Made by a program: the position numbers and the translations under genes. Positions 490 to 7,169 of a DNA stretch of 28,934 nucleotides are shown piece after piece. The notes under the pieces are model-generated. The model had not been told where the DNA came from. It worked only from the letters and a program-made list of their open reading frames with translations, and did not search any database. The stretch is from a virus. Position 1 is the first letter of the stretch; every line of letters starts with the position of its first letter. The stretch is from positions 1 through 28,934 of the IMG/VR virus record IMGVR_UViG_3300046003_002157, one strand, 5' to 3'.

Positions 490-717
490 TCAGAGGTCCT
501 TATTAAGGGTGAGGGTGCTGTCGAGGAGCCACTTGTAGACCGTTGACGGGCTAAGCTTACTGAGGGCAGCAACTTCCTTAACAGGGAGGCCATCCACCTT
601 AACAAGGCACAGCACTCTGGCTCTCGTGTTGTCGGCCAGTCCATAGGCCGGGTGATAGTCGGGGACTATCATGGCATAACGAGTGGCTCGGTCCTCTGAC
701 GTAAAGGCAAACCTCAC
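490..717 (-). CDS. Small helix-turn-helix protein, putative regulator
   Basis: This is a 75-aa protein with a GTG start, MRFAFTSEDRATRYA. Residues about 45-65 (VKEVAALSKLSPSTVYKWL) read as a helix-turn-helix: a helix, a turn around KLS, then a recognition helix ending in YKWL. Such folds bind DNA, so a phage transcription regulator acting near the adjacent repeat-rich control region is a reasonable inference. The GTG overlaps the TGA of the upstream gene (GTGA overlap), and the next gene starts 1 bp after its stop, so it sits in the middle of a tight leftward operon. The family is not identified. An alternative is a DNA-binding subdomain with another role, such as replication. Confidence 0.75.
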   Translation of the reverse strand: MRFAFTSEDRATRYAMIVPDYHPAYGLADNTRARVLCLVKVDGLPVKEVAALSKLSPSTVYKWLLDSTLTLNKDL

Positions 718-989
718 AGTGCCACCTCGATGGTAGCCATGCCGGGATTGAACCGGATGTTAAGATGGGTCAGGTCGTAGGTCCGCTTAAGCTCATGCCG
801 ATCACAGACAGTGATCAGGCAGTTGTTAAGGGGGGACGACTGGTCAACCACGATGAAGTCATGGCCTACGGTGTAGTCGTAAAGGGCGTCCTGTTGGCTG
901 ATGTAAGAGCGGTGTAAAGGACGGACCGAGAGGGTCTTGGTGTTAAGGGCAGTGGAGAGGTTGGCGAGTTTGGTCCAGCGATTAGCCAT
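714..989 (-). CDS. Unknown 91-aa early-region protein
   Basis: The protein begins MANRWTKLANLSTALNTKT and ends RFNPGMATIEVAL. It contains DALYDYTVGHDFIVVDQSS and NNCLITVCDRHELKRTYDL, which look like a compact alpha/beta fold. There is no signal peptide, membrane segment or motif I recognise. It is the first gene of the leftward operon. Upstream on the minus strand lie an AGGA ribosome site about 10 nt from the ATG, a CTTAACAC element (1014-1021) and a TTGACA promoter (1069-1097), giving a leader of roughly 70 nt. Its stop overlaps the GTG of the helix-turn-helix gene. Position next to the control region suggests an early regulatory or host-takeover protein, but this is inference. Confidence 0.75.
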   Translation of the reverse strand: MANRWTKLANLSTALNTKTLSVRPLHRSYISQQDALYDYTVGHDFIVVDQSSPLNNCLITVCDRHELKRTYDLTHLNIRFNPGMATIEVAL

Positions 990-1068
990 GATAGGGGTCC
1001 TGTCGATGTGTATGTGTTAAGTTCTCTGCTGGACCGGAGCAATTCTGTGAAACTCGGCCAGCTCCACC

Positions 1069-1097
1069 AACATGGCGAATGGCGTCGGCGATGTCAA
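1069..1097 (-). promoter_or_regulatory. Leftward sigma70-type promoter for the 989-1 operon
   Basis: On the minus strand a perfect TTGACA (1097-1092) is followed by 17 nt and CATGTT (1074-1069), which matches the -10 consensus at three of six positions. The predicted start is near 1062, about 70 nt upstream of the first gene of the leftward operon. The -35 box and spacing are strong, the -10 is weak. The spacing and the CAT start of the -10 resemble the promoter at 2501-2529. Confidence 0.5.
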
Positions 1098-1292
1098 GTT
1101 TTGGGGGGAAGGGGGGAAACTATCTAAACTTAACGTCAAAAGTAGACTAATTATCTTTACACGTTTTCGGAAAATAGATAGTGTAAGTGATTGATATTGC
1201 TGAGGAACTTGCTTTACTATCTAAACTATCACGGAAAAACCAGAGGATACCCCCCACAAATTGTGAAGGGGTCGGAGCTTTACGTGTAAAGG

Positions 1293-1313
1293 TGTTAAGT
1301 TGCTAACTTAACA
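1293..1313. promoter_or_regulatory. 9-bp perfect inverted repeat, operator-like
   Basis: TGTTAAGTT, a 3-nt spacer GCT, then AACTTAACA: perfect 9-bp arms. The half-site recurs alone at about 1015, 1448 and 1488. Just upstream is a second inverted repeat, CTTTAC-GT-GTAAAG (1278-1291), and the pair is enclosed by AGCTTT (1276-1281) and AAAGCT (1313-1318). The symmetry suggests a dimeric DNA-binding protein, possibly the helix-turn-helix product encoded at 490-717 (inference). Confidence 0.5.
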
Positions 1314-1710
1314 AAGCTGAAATTTTCACGAAAATAGGTGAGCATCATCTAAAAAAACGTATATTTTATATATATTATAGATAGTTTCCAGTTTTCTACC
1401 CTCTGGTTAACACCAGTAAGCCCTTGGTTTCATTGGAGAATTTCCTTAACTTAACACAGTTACATCAGCACAGTCTTACTCAACGCGTGTTAAGTTGGGG
1501 TAGACCAAAAATAGATAGTTGTTTGTTATCAATGACTTAGCTTATGTAAAGCTGCGGCCCCCCGTCTAAGTGATGTAAGGCTAGGCTCTACGTTAGGACC
1601 TACAAGCCCCCGACGTATGGCGAGAGTATCGAGCAAACCTTACACGCGATCGCGCGCAGCGCGTCGCTTCTTTACACACCTGTGGTTGCTGTGCGGCAGA
1701 CATGCGTAAA

Positions 1711-1734
1711 CCCCGCCCAATTTCTTGGGCGGGG
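1711..1734 (-). terminator. Leftward intrinsic terminator
   Basis: A perfect 10-bp stem (CCCCGCCCAA / TTGGGCGGGG) closes a 4-nt loop, which reads GAAA on the minus strand, and is followed leftward by GTTTACG. It begins 6 bp beyond the TAA of the gene at 1741-1959, as expected for a terminator ending that short leftward transcript. The U-tract is short, so termination may be incomplete. Confidence 0.65.
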
Positions 1735-1740
1735 TCAGTG

Positions 1741-1959
1741 TTAAGCGAAGAGGAAGTAAAGGAAGAGTAGGATCACTGTGGCTCCCATCAGCGCTTGCCC
1801 TAACATGTTAAATGTAAAGATGGGCTTCGGATGGGCGTCAAGGTATCGCTGAGCGTTGCGCTGTCCCAGTCTGGACATGTCCATGTCCCGAGCGTTCTGG
1901 CTCGCGCGCAGTGTAAGCTTCTTATCCTGCGCAGCATTGCGTTGTTCTTTGGTCATCAT
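1741..1959 (-). CDS. Small membrane protein, C-terminal anchor
   Basis: A 72-aa protein. Residues 1-45 are polar and charged (MMTKEQRNAAQDKKLTLRAS and following, with many Arg/Gln/Asp), probably helical. Residues about 53-72 (LGQALMGATVILLFLYFLFA) form a single hydrophobic segment running to the C-terminus, so it is tail-anchored with a cytoplasmic N-terminus. There is a good AAAGGA ribosome site; either of two adjacent ATGs (1959 or 1956) could be the start. It is preceded by a hairpin (1977-2002) and followed by a terminator (1711-1734). The function is not recognised. Superinfection exclusion or membrane take-over would fit an early phage membrane protein, but nothing in the sequence proves it. 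Confidence 0.7.
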   Translation of the reverse strand: MMTKEQRNAAQDKKLTLRASQNARDMDMSRLGQRNAQRYLDAHPKPIFTFNMLGQALMGATVILLFLYFLFA

Positions 1960-1976
1960 GTTTCCTTTGTGTTAAG

Positions 1977-2002
1977 AGGCAGGGCGCGCAAGCGCCCTGC
2001 CT
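1977..2002 (-). terminator. Hairpin between two leftward genes, possible partial terminator
   Basis: A perfect 11-bp stem AGGCAGGGCGC / GCGCCCTGCCT with a 4-nt loop lies 5 bp past the stop of the gene at 2008-2370. It is followed on the minus strand by CTTAACAC rather than a clear U-run. It may be a leaky terminator, an RNA-processing site or an mRNA 3'-end stabiliser lowering expression of the downstream membrane protein. Confidence 0.45.
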
Positions 2003-2007
2003 GTCTG

Positions 2008-2370
2008 TCACTTCTGCGCTGCCATCAGCGATTGCAGCATCGCCATCATCGCGGCCAGATCAGGTGCGGCCGGAGCCTCGGGAGCCGGAGCGGCGGGAGC
2101 CGCCTTGGCCTTGCCCTTGACCTGAGCCTTGGCCGGAGCCGGAGCGACCGGGGTCGCAGGCTTCTTTTCTTCCCGTGACCGAGCCAAGCGGCGGTCGATC
2201 ACCAGAAGGTCGCCGAACCGTGTGATCACGGCGTCGAAGTTTTCGGCGTCTTTGCCAGCCGCTGCGACGAGCGCAGCATCCTTGGCGCGGCACTTGCCGC
2301 CCGGCGTCACGCCATCCAGAGTGATGGTGAACGTGAGGGTGACAGGCGACATTGCGACGTATTGAGCCAT
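2008..2370 (-). CDS. Ala/Pro-rich unknown protein
   Basis: A 120-aa protein. The start is set at the ATG at 2370 because GGAG lies 7 nt upstream (GGAGAAATGTCATG); a longer open frame to 2472 has no ribosome site. Residues 1-70 (MAQYVAMSPVTLTFTITLDG and following) look like a small folded domain with beta-strands and a helix around ENFDAVITRFGDLLVIDRRL. Residues about 75-103 are an Ala/Pro/Lys linker of low complexity. The C-terminus (AAMMAMLQSLMAAQK) is an amphipathic helix that could oligomerise or dock a partner. It is the first gene after the leftward promoter at 2501-2529, with a leader of about 120 nt. The family is not recognised. Confidence 0.7.
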   Translation of the reverse strand: MAQYVAMSPVTLTFTITLDGVTPGGKCRAKDAALVAAAGKDAENFDAVITRFGDLLVIDRRLARSREEKKPATPVAPAPAKAQVKGKAKAAPAAPAPEAPAAPDLAAMMAMLQSLMAAQK

Positions 2371-2467
2371 GACATTTCTCCATATGTATGTCATAGGTGC
2401 CGACAGGGCACCACTGTTGCAGGTGCTAGTCTCTAACGATGTCAAAGAGCATGGGCGTCGCCGCCCG

Positions 2468-2494
2468 GTCACTCACTACTCAGTCACTCACTAC
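2468..2494. repeat. 12-bp direct repeat near leftward transcription start
   Basis: GTCACTCACTAC occurs twice (2468-2479 and 2483-2494), separated by 3 bp, a 15-bp period. The predicted start of the leftward promoter at 2501-2529 falls at about its right edge, so a bound protein would sit on the initially transcribed region. Confidence 0.6.
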
Positions 2495-2500
2495 CCCTTC

Positions 2501-2529
2501 TTTATGGCAGGGCCTGCCGCTTTTGTCAA
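2501..2529 (-). promoter_or_regulatory. Leftward sigma70-type promoter
   Basis: On the minus strand TTGACA (2529-2524), 17 nt, then CATAAA (2506-2501): a consensus -35, ideal spacing and four of six -10 positions. The start is near 2494, giving a leader of about 125 nt before the ATG at 2370. The spacer contains a perfect palindrome, GGCAGG-G-CCTGCC (2506-2518), a possible operator. Confidence 0.6.
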
Positions 2530-2749
2530 AACTCTGCGCACATAGGGGCAGGCGGCCGCCTTATAGCACGTCGCGCCACGCAGGGGCAGGCATAGGGGGG
2601 AGGGGGGGTTGGACAGCGAATTTTCTGGCCCCCCCTAGTGTAGTAAAGCCCATACAACAAAACCCGAAATTTACAATACCTTTACATCTTAACGTCACTT
2701 ACCAACCCCTTATAAAATTTTCCAGCCAAAAAACCAAAACCTTTACATA

Positions 2750-2778
2750 TTGACTGCGCCCGCCACCTTGAGTTACCT
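2750..2778 (+). promoter_or_regulatory. Candidate late promoter before terS
   Basis: TTGACT (2750-2755), 17 nt, TTACCT (2773-2778). The -35 is good and the -10 poor. If used, the start would be near 2785, about 2 nt from the terS ATG, implying an almost leaderless mRNA. A CTTTACAT element lies directly upstream at 2741-2748 and could bind an activator that compensates for the weak -10 (inference). Confidence 0.3.
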
Positions 2779-2786
2779 TCACGCAC

Positions 2787-3272
2787 ATGTACATGAGCCC
2801 CGTCCAGACCAAGTGGAGCGACCGCTTCGCCTTTGATCTCGCCCTCCTCCTTGAGGGGAGTGGTGAAAAGCTGGATGAGCTTCTGGACAGACACGAACTG
2901 GATGCCAACGACCTTCTGAAATACAAGAAGGACACCAACTTCCTGAAGAAGGTCGAGGCGTACAGGGAAGAAGTACACACTAAGGGGCTCACGTTTAAGG
3001 TTAAGGCGCGTGCACAGGCGGAGGAGCTCCTCCGCACCAGCTGGTTGCTGATCCATGACCCGATCGTGAGCCCCGCAGTGAAGGCAGACCTGATTAAATC
3101 CACTGTAAAGTGGGCTGGACTGGATACAACGCCTGCCAACGAGGCCCAGAACGCAGCCGGTGGCGTCACGATCACCATAAATCTTGGTGGACAGACGCTG
3201 GATGTGACGGCAAGGCCTGCAATCGAGGCTGAAGTGGAGCCCGAGTACACGGATTACGTGGATGAGGAGTGA
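2787..3272 (+). CDS. terS: Small terminase subunit (TerS)
   Basis: A 161-aa protein, first gene of the rightward operon. The N-terminal third is helical and acidic (GSGEKLDELLDRHELDANDL), as in TerS DNA-recognition domains. A central helical region with FKVKARAQAEELLRTSWLL and SPAVKADLIKSTVKWAGLDT is typical of small terminases of marine and freshwater podophages. The C-terminus is Thr/Val/Glu-rich and acidic (EVEPEYTDYVDEE), where TerS proteins usually contact TerL or portal. TerS recognises the packaging site and regulates the large subunit. Position just ahead of terL supports the call. ATGs at 2787 and 2793 are both possible; neither has a clear ribosome site. Confidence comes mainly from synteny and the central motif. 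Confidence 0.75.
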   Translation: MYMSPVQTKWSDRFAFDLALLLEGSGEKLDELLDRHELDANDLLKYKKDTNFLKKVEAYREEVHTKGLTFKVKARAQAEELLRTSWLLIHDPIVSPAVKADLIKSTVKWAGLDTTPANEAQNAAGGVTITINLGGQTLDVTARPAIEAEVEPEYTDYVDEE

Positions 3273-5506: not shown

Positions 5507-7169
5507 TCTGCCAGTTATGAACCGGCTCCGCAGGAGTGGGCGGGCGCTCTCGCCTGCCAGTCTGTTCTCGACTGGGGCGCAGGGTGTGATCTACGATCCA
5601 CGAGACCTGTCCACCATGTTCCAAGAGAGTACGGGTACAACGCCTGTCACGGCTCCGGGGCAGGTCGTGGGGCTGCGACTCGACAAGTCCAAGGGTGGGC
5701 CCGGGCCGGAGTTGGTATCCAACGGGGATTTCTCCAATGGCCAGACAGGGTGGACTGACGGTCCGACTACGCCATCTGGCTGGACGTTCGCGGGTGGTGT
5801 TTGCAGCGGCGCTGGGGCTGCCGGTGGGTATCAGAACGTCGGACAGGTAGTTTCTGGCAAGACCTACGTCGCAGAGTTTACTATCTCCAATTATGTTAAC
5901 GGCTCCTTGTCCCTTATAAATTCTGTAGTCGGTGCGTTCGGCACTGTGTTCAGTGGGAACGGGGTGATGCGCCAAGTATTCACGGCAGGTGCTACGGGGA
6001 CCATCGGGTTTATCCGGCGCACAACTAATTTCACAGGCACTATCGACAACTTTTCTGTGCGTGAGCTCCCCGGTAACCATGCAGTCCAAGCCACCTCAGG
6101 CGCACGCCTGACCTACGGCATCGAGCCCAAGACCGGCACGCGGAATTTGCTCACCTACTCGGAAGATTTCTCGAACGGAATTTGGGGTAAGACTAGCGCG
6201 ACGGTTACGACCAACACTGCTGTCGCACCGGATGGCACGACTACCGCTGACCTAATCCAGTTTACCGGAGCTCCGGGGGCAAGCCAAACCGTTTATGGAT
6301 ATGACACTAGAACGGGCGCGCACACTGTGTCCTTCTATGTAAAGGCCAATACTGCCGGCGGTGTGGGCCAGACAGTAAGGATCGACAGCACTGGTGCAGG
6401 AGCGAACGCGGTAGTCGCTACCCTTACTGCAGAGTGGCAGCGCTACAGTATCGCCATCAATCCGACAGGGTATTTTCAGTACAGGGTTATCAGCGCTGCA
6501 GGCAACACAGCTACTGAACTTCTTCTCTGGGGCGCACAACTCGAAACCGGCGCGGTCGCCACCGCTTACCAGAAAGTGGTCACTGCTTTCGAGGTCACCG
6601 AGGCCGGTGTCCCGACTTGCCACTACTGCGCCTACGCCGGCGCTAACGGCATGGCCACGCCATCGATCGACTTCACCGCGACGGACAAGATGAGCGTGTT
6701 TGCGGGGATGAGAAAGACAAGCGATGCTGCGGAGGCTATCGCTCTCGAACTGAACACCACTTATGATACGGGGAACGGAGCCTTTGCCCTGTTCGCGCCG
6801 GGTGGTATTTCAGCAGCCAGAGATAGCGCATTTGTCTGGGCGTCCAAGGGGACGCTCAAGTCGTTCACCGGACCACTTGCCGCCGCTTTCCCTGCGCCGA
6901 CCACTAATGTACTGACTGCACTAGGTGATATCGCTGGTGATGTAGCGGCTATCCGGGTCAACGGAACCCAAGTTGCGTCATCCAGCGCAGACCAAGGCAC
7001 CGGTAATTTTGGGAACTATACCCTTAATATTGGCAGACGTTCCGGTGGTACGTTGCCCTTCACCGGCCGAGACTACGGCATCGTCATCGTTGGCAAGGCC
7101 GCGTCTGCTGCCGAGATTAACATCACAGAAGCATGGCTGGCTGCGAACACCCCGACGGTCGTGCTGTAA
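5496..7169 (+). CDS. Carbohydrate-binding/LamG-like virion protein (557 aa)
   Basis: The start is the ATG at 5496 (AGGGG 5 nt upstream), giving 557 aa; a longer frame from 5448 lies inside the previous gene. Residues 30-65 carry a motif common in phage proteins, GVIYDPRDLSTMFQ to GLRLDKS. Residues about 69-190 are a CBM-like beta-sandwich (ELVSNGDFSNGQTGW). G193-NHAVQAT resumes the first motif. Residues 216-360 are a second sandwich (RNLLTYSEDFSNGIW to LLLWGAQLETG). Residues about 370-557 look like a concanavalin/LamG fold. Such proteins bind surface glycans, on the capsid or as fibres. Its place between terL and portal, with promoter and terminator signals, suggests an added cassette. Confidence 0.8.
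   Translation: MGFDLPVMNRLRRSGRALSPASLFSTGAQGVIYDPRDLSTMFQESTGTTPVTAPGQVVGLRLDKSKGGPGPELVSNGDFSNGQTGWTDGPTTPSGWTFAGGVCSGAGAAGGYQNVGQVVSGKTYVAEFTISNYVNGSLSLINSVVGAFGTVFSGNGVMRQVFTAGATGTIGFIRRTTNFTGTIDNFSVRELPGNHAVQATSGARLTYGIEPKTGTRNLLTYSEDFSNGIWGKTSATVTTNTAVAPDGTTTADLIQFTGAPGASQTVYGYDTRTGAHTVSFYVKANTAGGVGQTVRIDSTGAGANAVVATLTAEWQRYSIAINPTGYFQYRVISAAGNTATELLLWGAQLETGAVATAYQKVVTAFEVTEAGVPTCHYCAYAGANGMATPSIDFTATDKMSVFAGMRKTSDAAEAIALELNTTYDTGNGAFALFAPGGISAARDSAFVWASKGTLKSFTGPLAAAFPAPTTNVLTALGDIAGDVAAIRVNGTQVASSSADQGTGNFGNYTLNIGRRSGGTLPFTGRDYGIVIVGKAASAAEINITEAWLAANTPTVVL

Follow-up and report, generated by a model that had tools for sequence, protein, structure and literature searches.

The window analysed here, a stretch of 28,934 bases, is a fragment of a virus of ~57 kb. 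Its closest relative is IMGVR_UViG_3300046006_000628 (genome G001, locus L010; TerL 93%, portal 98%). This genome and a second relative, G006, self-close by a 127-base overlap, which gives complete circles of 57,038 and 57,194 bases. The genome plan consists of two diverging blocks, a rightward one with terS, terL and structural genes and a leftward one with early and replication genes, the latter encoding DNA polymerase A, a helicase and a 957-aa PrimPol-DUF927 primase-helicase. The early block of G001 also carries conserved genes for a MoxR-like ATPase, a DUF3150 protein and a metallopeptidase/VWA (DUF2201) protein (L090:32-748, L090:2299-3165 and L090:3708-4835), and the end of its late block encodes a 2,525-aa protein that is mostly without family matches (L091:291-7868). 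A search of 84,980 bacterial and archaeal species genomes for TerL relatives returned one contig only, from an uncultured actinobacterium bin. Where the early and late blocks diverge, the window carries the gene of a 75-aa HTH protein (490–717, minus strand; HTH_23) in translational overlap with the gene of a 91-aa protein (714–989, minus strand). These are followed by a 72-aa protein gene (1741–1959, minus strand), the product of which has a hydrophobic C-terminus, and by a small terminase subunit-like gene (terS; 2787–3272, plus strand), which adjoins TerL and has a weak PHROG match only. A terminator-like GC-rich hairpin of 10 bp (CCCCGCCCAA-TTTC-TTGGGCGGGG) was recognised in the sequence downstream of the 72-aa gene (1711–1734).

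An array of the 8-mer RTGTWAAG (M1; CTTWACAY in the reverse reading) extends across this junction. The preliminary description had listed 16 copies between 757 and 2748 and a single further one at 6337; a pattern count recovered all of them, 17 in the window, with one reverse copy placed one base off (1670, not 1671). Within the 91-aa gene lie ATGTTAAG at 757–764, which is still a site in L010, GTGTAAAG at 912–919 (ATGTAAAG in L010) and GTGTTAAG at 940–947 (GTGTAAAG in L010), and GTGTTAAG at 1014–1021 is in the leader of that gene, downstream of its predicted promoter; all four are on the plus strand. The noncoding stretch contains GTGTAAAG at 1155–1162 (minus), GTGTAAAG at 1284–1291 and GTGTTAAG at 1292–1299 in tandem at a spacing of 8 bp (both plus), GTGTTAAG at 1450–1457 (minus), GTGTTAAG at 1487–1494 (plus; ATGTAAAG in L010), ATGTAAAG at 1544–1551 (plus; GTGTAAAG in L010) and GTGTAAAG at 1670–1677 (minus). 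The 72-aa gene has GTGTTAAG at its 3' end (1738–1745), ATGTAAAG inside it (1812–1819; absent in L010) and GTGTTAAG in its leader (1969–1976; GTGTGAAG in L010), all on the plus strand, and ATGTAAAG occurs twice on the minus strand before terS, at 2680–2687 in the leader and at 2741–2748, 1 bp upstream of the predicted terS −35. The isolated match at 6337–6344 (plus strand) is probably due to chance.

The array itself is not. In 100 dinucleotide shuffles of the window M1 was expected 1.9 ± 1.3 times with a maximum of 7, against the 17 observed, and the reversed-pattern control gave no match in the whole window. When region 700–2790 was shuffled on its own composition (2000 shuffles), 0.28 ± 0.53 copies were obtained with a maximum of 3, against 16 observed, and the noncoding part (990–1740) held eight copies where shuffles of its own composition predicted 0.16. 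The local shuffles and the reversed-pattern control thus excluded chance and AT-rich composition as the source of the array and bore out the enrichment for which the preliminary description had proposed a count against shuffled sequence. In unbiased clustering of words from the window, G001, G003 and G006, those of M1 ranked first or nearly first. Both complete relatives concentrate the word in 3–4% of the genome, which holds 19 of 23 copies in one and 12 of 14 in the other. Distances between M1 sites showed excesses only at 8, 11, 46 and 57 bp, mostly from shared ancestry, and helical phasing was rejected on this ground. A literature search for the M1 word returned, among the papers listed, only unrelated sequence matches.

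The array was present in all clade-1 relatives (TerL 82–95%). Relatives had 8–19 copies at the same place, and sixteen 2.4-kb regions contained 208 M1 copies compared with five of the reversed-pattern control. In an alignment of the window with L010, 14 of the 16 M1 copies were still sites and 10 were identical; in the four substituted sites the changes occurred only at the R and W positions, while 23% of background 8-mers were identical between the two sequences. This pattern of retention indicates that the word is under selection, and the conservation in relatives anticipated in the preliminary description was observed throughout the clade. A position matrix built from clade 1, as also proposed there, yielded RTGTWAAG with one extra preference, T at position +9, the fuller form being RTGTWAAGNT. 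The consensus drifts from clade to clade: GTGTWAAG-N-T, RTGT[AC]AAGTT in a second clade (TerL ~77%) and GTGTATAGTTA in a small subclade, 2b. According to the matrices the word is asymmetric and without dyad symmetry. In alignment A4 the row for L212 was disregarded because its coordinates were wrong. No M1 array was detected in Pseudomonas phage Rollin (TerL 44%) or in phages with 27–35% primase. Rollin (OR577172, positions 1–510 and the end of the record) carries a 25-bp palindrome, AAAAGGTAGYAASTTRCTACCTTTT, in about five copies that span the record ends and differ from M1, and a distant primase relative, G014 (L206), has repeats of the TAACAATGTTA type clustered in its first 2.5 kb.

The preliminary description had also stated that, read as CTTWACAY, most copies at gene boundaries point along transcription. 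This held for the close relatives: of the clade-1 sites in the 91-aa gene, leader and coding part together, 37 pointed leftward and one rightward, and the 18 sites before terS all pointed rightward, counts that overstate the evidence since homologous sites are not independent. It did not hold in the long noncoding stretch, where orientation was mixed (81 to 44), or in the second clade, which has the site ahead of terS in the opposite orientation. In 12 of 18 clade-1 loci a TTGACA-N17/18 promoter was predicted ~100–117 bases ahead of the 91-aa gene, at the same place as in the window (TTGACA-N17-CATGTT, 1069–1097, minus strand), and in 16 of 18 a CTTWACAC site was found 23–33 bases before the ATG. 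Since this site stands between the promoter and the ATG, it is probably transcribed. At most clade-1 loci CTTTACAY was located 1–2 bp upstream of a predicted TTGACN-N18-TACCAT-like terS promoter; L010 is an exception, in which an insertion shifts the site away from the −35. For the window, an upstream alignment gave TTGACT-N18-TACCTT at 2750–2779 (plus strand), ending 7 nt before the ATG. The predicted terS promoter ended 6–7 bases before the ATG in both clades (window 2750–2787; L047, L077 and others), which suggests a leaderless terS message.

A second repeat, ACWATCTA (M2), accompanies M1 in the noncoding region. The window has five copies between 1119 and 1519 (ACTATCTA/TAGATAGT), in places adjoining M1: ACTATCTA on the plus strand at 1119–1126 and 1216–1223, and minus-strand copies at 1175–1182, 1378–1385 and 1512–1519. 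In the conserved noncoding core the M1 site at 1155–1162 adjoins a copy of M2, and the most conserved noncoding blocks had M1 and M2 side by side. M2, as ACTATCTA or as ACAATCTA, to which it drifts in part of clade 2, was enriched in the same noncoding region of both clades and was sometimes mirror-arranged around an AT-rich segment. In the window this conserved AT-rich core (ACGTATATTTTATATATATTATAG, 1350–1382) is a candidate unwinding element. A further noncoding block, CTACARGCCCCCGACRTATGGCGAGYGTANCGAGCAAAC, is very conserved between the window (1617–1658) and relatives. One trait of iteron origins, clustered short repeats adjoining an AT-rich segment, is present, and M1, M2 and the AT-rich core together give the region an origin-like look as judged from the sequence.

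An HTH_23 search over whole genomes followed by a homology search identified a ~95-aa HTH protein, the gene of which lies outside the window, directly upstream of the primase-helicase gene. It was found in all eight long genomes examined (G001 and G003–G009) and in three further contigs, and its family matches were to generic HTH only. The contigs of subclade 2b did not extend to this gene. A 60-kb relative, G010, had no match to this protein, no HTH in that slot and no M1 cluster; in distant relatives the slot upstream of primase-helicase is taken by other small HTH genes. Found in all the long genomes examined and, like an M1 cluster, not detected in G010, the ~95-aa protein is our preferred candidate binder. 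Many genes are common to all array-bearing genomes, so co-occurrence cannot single it out, and no M1 site was found near its operon. Two other candidates were rejected. The 91-aa protein is conserved in clade 1 and, at ~40%, in L044/L045/L087, had no Pfam or PHROG family and no confident fold match, and is absent from clade 2a; its model was of low confidence. The gene slot to the left of terS (120–134 aa) holds unrelated proteins across genomes.

The compact asymmetric word, its clustering, selection on it, its clade-wide presence and its drift between clades make a binding site of a phage-encoded regulator, as proposed in the preliminary description, the best-supported reading. We hold with moderate confidence that the array consists of multi-copy asymmetric operators or iterons for a phage-encoded DNA-binding regulator, which is likeliest to be the ~95-aa HTH protein. 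We infer the binder, its mode of binding, its regulatory effect and the balance between transcription and replication along the following lines. The protein would recognise RTGTWAAGNT, repeated 10–20 times over the divergent early/late control region; since the site is asymmetric and only ~10 bp long, a single HTH unit would probably occupy each copy, with units sometimes adjacent to one another in the 8- or 11-bp tandems. Filling of the array would govern the activity of the host-type promoters on either side, by activation or by exclusion of RNA polymerase at the terS −35 and as a roadblock in the leader downstream of the 91-aa gene promoter. The AT-rich core and the second repeat family lie within the array, and its occupation may for this reason also contribute to the assembly or regulation of a replication origin. 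We give precedence to the transcriptional role since the sites are linked to promoters in position and orientation.

The AT-rich core, the second repeat and the place of the candidate in the replication operon make an origin a serious rival, and we regard as a real, if lesser, possibility that M1 copies are origin iterons bound by an initiator, either the primase-helicase or the adjoining HTH protein, with transcriptional effects being secondary. Iteron arrays occur at phage and plasmid origins, as with the alpha protein of satellite phage P4, lambda O and the Rep iterons of plasmids, and in P4 the primase-helicase itself acts as initiator. The phages studied here resemble these systems in having short repeats around an AT-rich noncoding segment, with partly mirror-arranged M2 adjoining M1, in encoding a primase-helicase (PrimPol and DUF927) that is conserved in both clades, and in the universal HTH gene directly upstream of it. 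However, M1 also occurs in coding sequence and at promoters, often isolated and not evenly spaced; sites are found within the 91-aa gene and up to the terS promoter, at 0.4–1.4 kb from the AT core; their orientation in clade 1 is linked to transcription; and GC skew did not clearly mark an origin.

The binder suggested in the preliminary description, the 75-aa HTH protein from the same operon, is unlikely to have the M1 copies as its operators. Its gene lies at the array in most clade-1 genomes, and the HTH_23 match is accompanied by a three-helix fold weakly similar to the −35-binding domains of sigma region 4. However, the protein was absent from its slot in L020, L031/L032 and L033/L035, and none turned up anywhere in clade 2 or in near-complete G004; all these genomes bear the array. 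Retention of the array in genomes without this protein speaks against it as the binder.

Nor was the suggestion of an alternative promoter element supported. That CTTWACAY is a −35-like box of an alternative sigma factor or phage RNA polymerase appears very improbable, although CTTTACAY and CTTGACAY resemble TTGACA and the clade-2 terS −35 is itself CTTGACAC. A scan of 228 M1 sites revealed no −10 or other element at a fixed distance, which argues that M1 is not itself a promoter; the 8-bp tandems, the inverted copies and the clade 2b form AACTATACAC, which is not −35-like, point the same way, and ordinary TTGACA/TAnnnT-type promoters were recognisable before terS and also, in the majority of relatives, before the 91-aa gene. 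A search of seven genomes for phage RNA polymerase (PF00940) gave no match, with the control genomes silent too. A sigma-70 −35 with a hidden −10 was rejected on the lack of positional signal over the 228 sites, a DnaA box because the site begins with an invariant C and the next position has no preference, and boxA of a lambda-type nut site because the bases before the core appear not to fit. Recognition of M1 by the small terminase subunit, as in a pac region, is just as hard to credit: the array adjoins terS, which accompanies it in all clades, but the sites are scattered through 2 kb, some of them beyond a noncoding region of 750 bp.

The M1 core TGTWAAG is reminiscent of TGTCAAG in the stoperator of mycobacteriophage L5, and the stoperators of Cluster A mycobacteriophages are the nearest described behaviour. 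Both systems have many short asymmetric sites with a consensus that drifts between related phages, and a small DNA-binding protein (of the L5 gp71 type in Cluster A, a candidate in the case of M1). In the clade-1 leaders M1 follows transcription in its orientation, and at terS in clade 2 it is reversed. Cluster A stoperators are asymmetric sites of 13–14 bp bound by a repressor monomer, and 20–30 of them per genome are spread genome-wide, oriented with transcription, in temperate phages (PMC6550527, PMC9283540). In contrast, the M1 site is ~10 bp long and the array is packed into ~2 kb. The Cluster A repressor is a two-domain protein of ~180 aa; the M1 candidates have 75 and ~95 aa and generic HTH matches only. 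No match to phage integrase (PF00589) was found in seven genomes, in a search whose control was positive in 14 of 14. Because of the site length, the confinement to one region and the lack of an integrase match, we did not assign the array to the Cluster A stoperators. A more speculative version of our preferred reading, which we offer tentatively and consider rather improbable, is a stoperator-like silencing array that arose independently in phages that are apparently not temperate. In this version a small HTH protein with a single domain, encoded in the replication operon, would read the asymmetric 10-bp word both as iterons and as roadblocks and so make one hub at which the early/late switch is linked to replication.

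For a widespread uncultured phage group with apparently no described regulation, a defined word, a map and one candidate protein are now available for the control region. The drift of the consensus from clade to clade provides material for matching sites to proteins. Should it prove both to control transcription and to mark the origin, the array would be a compact system for work on the link between phage replication and the early/late switch, and could be compared with the mycobacteriophage stoperators.
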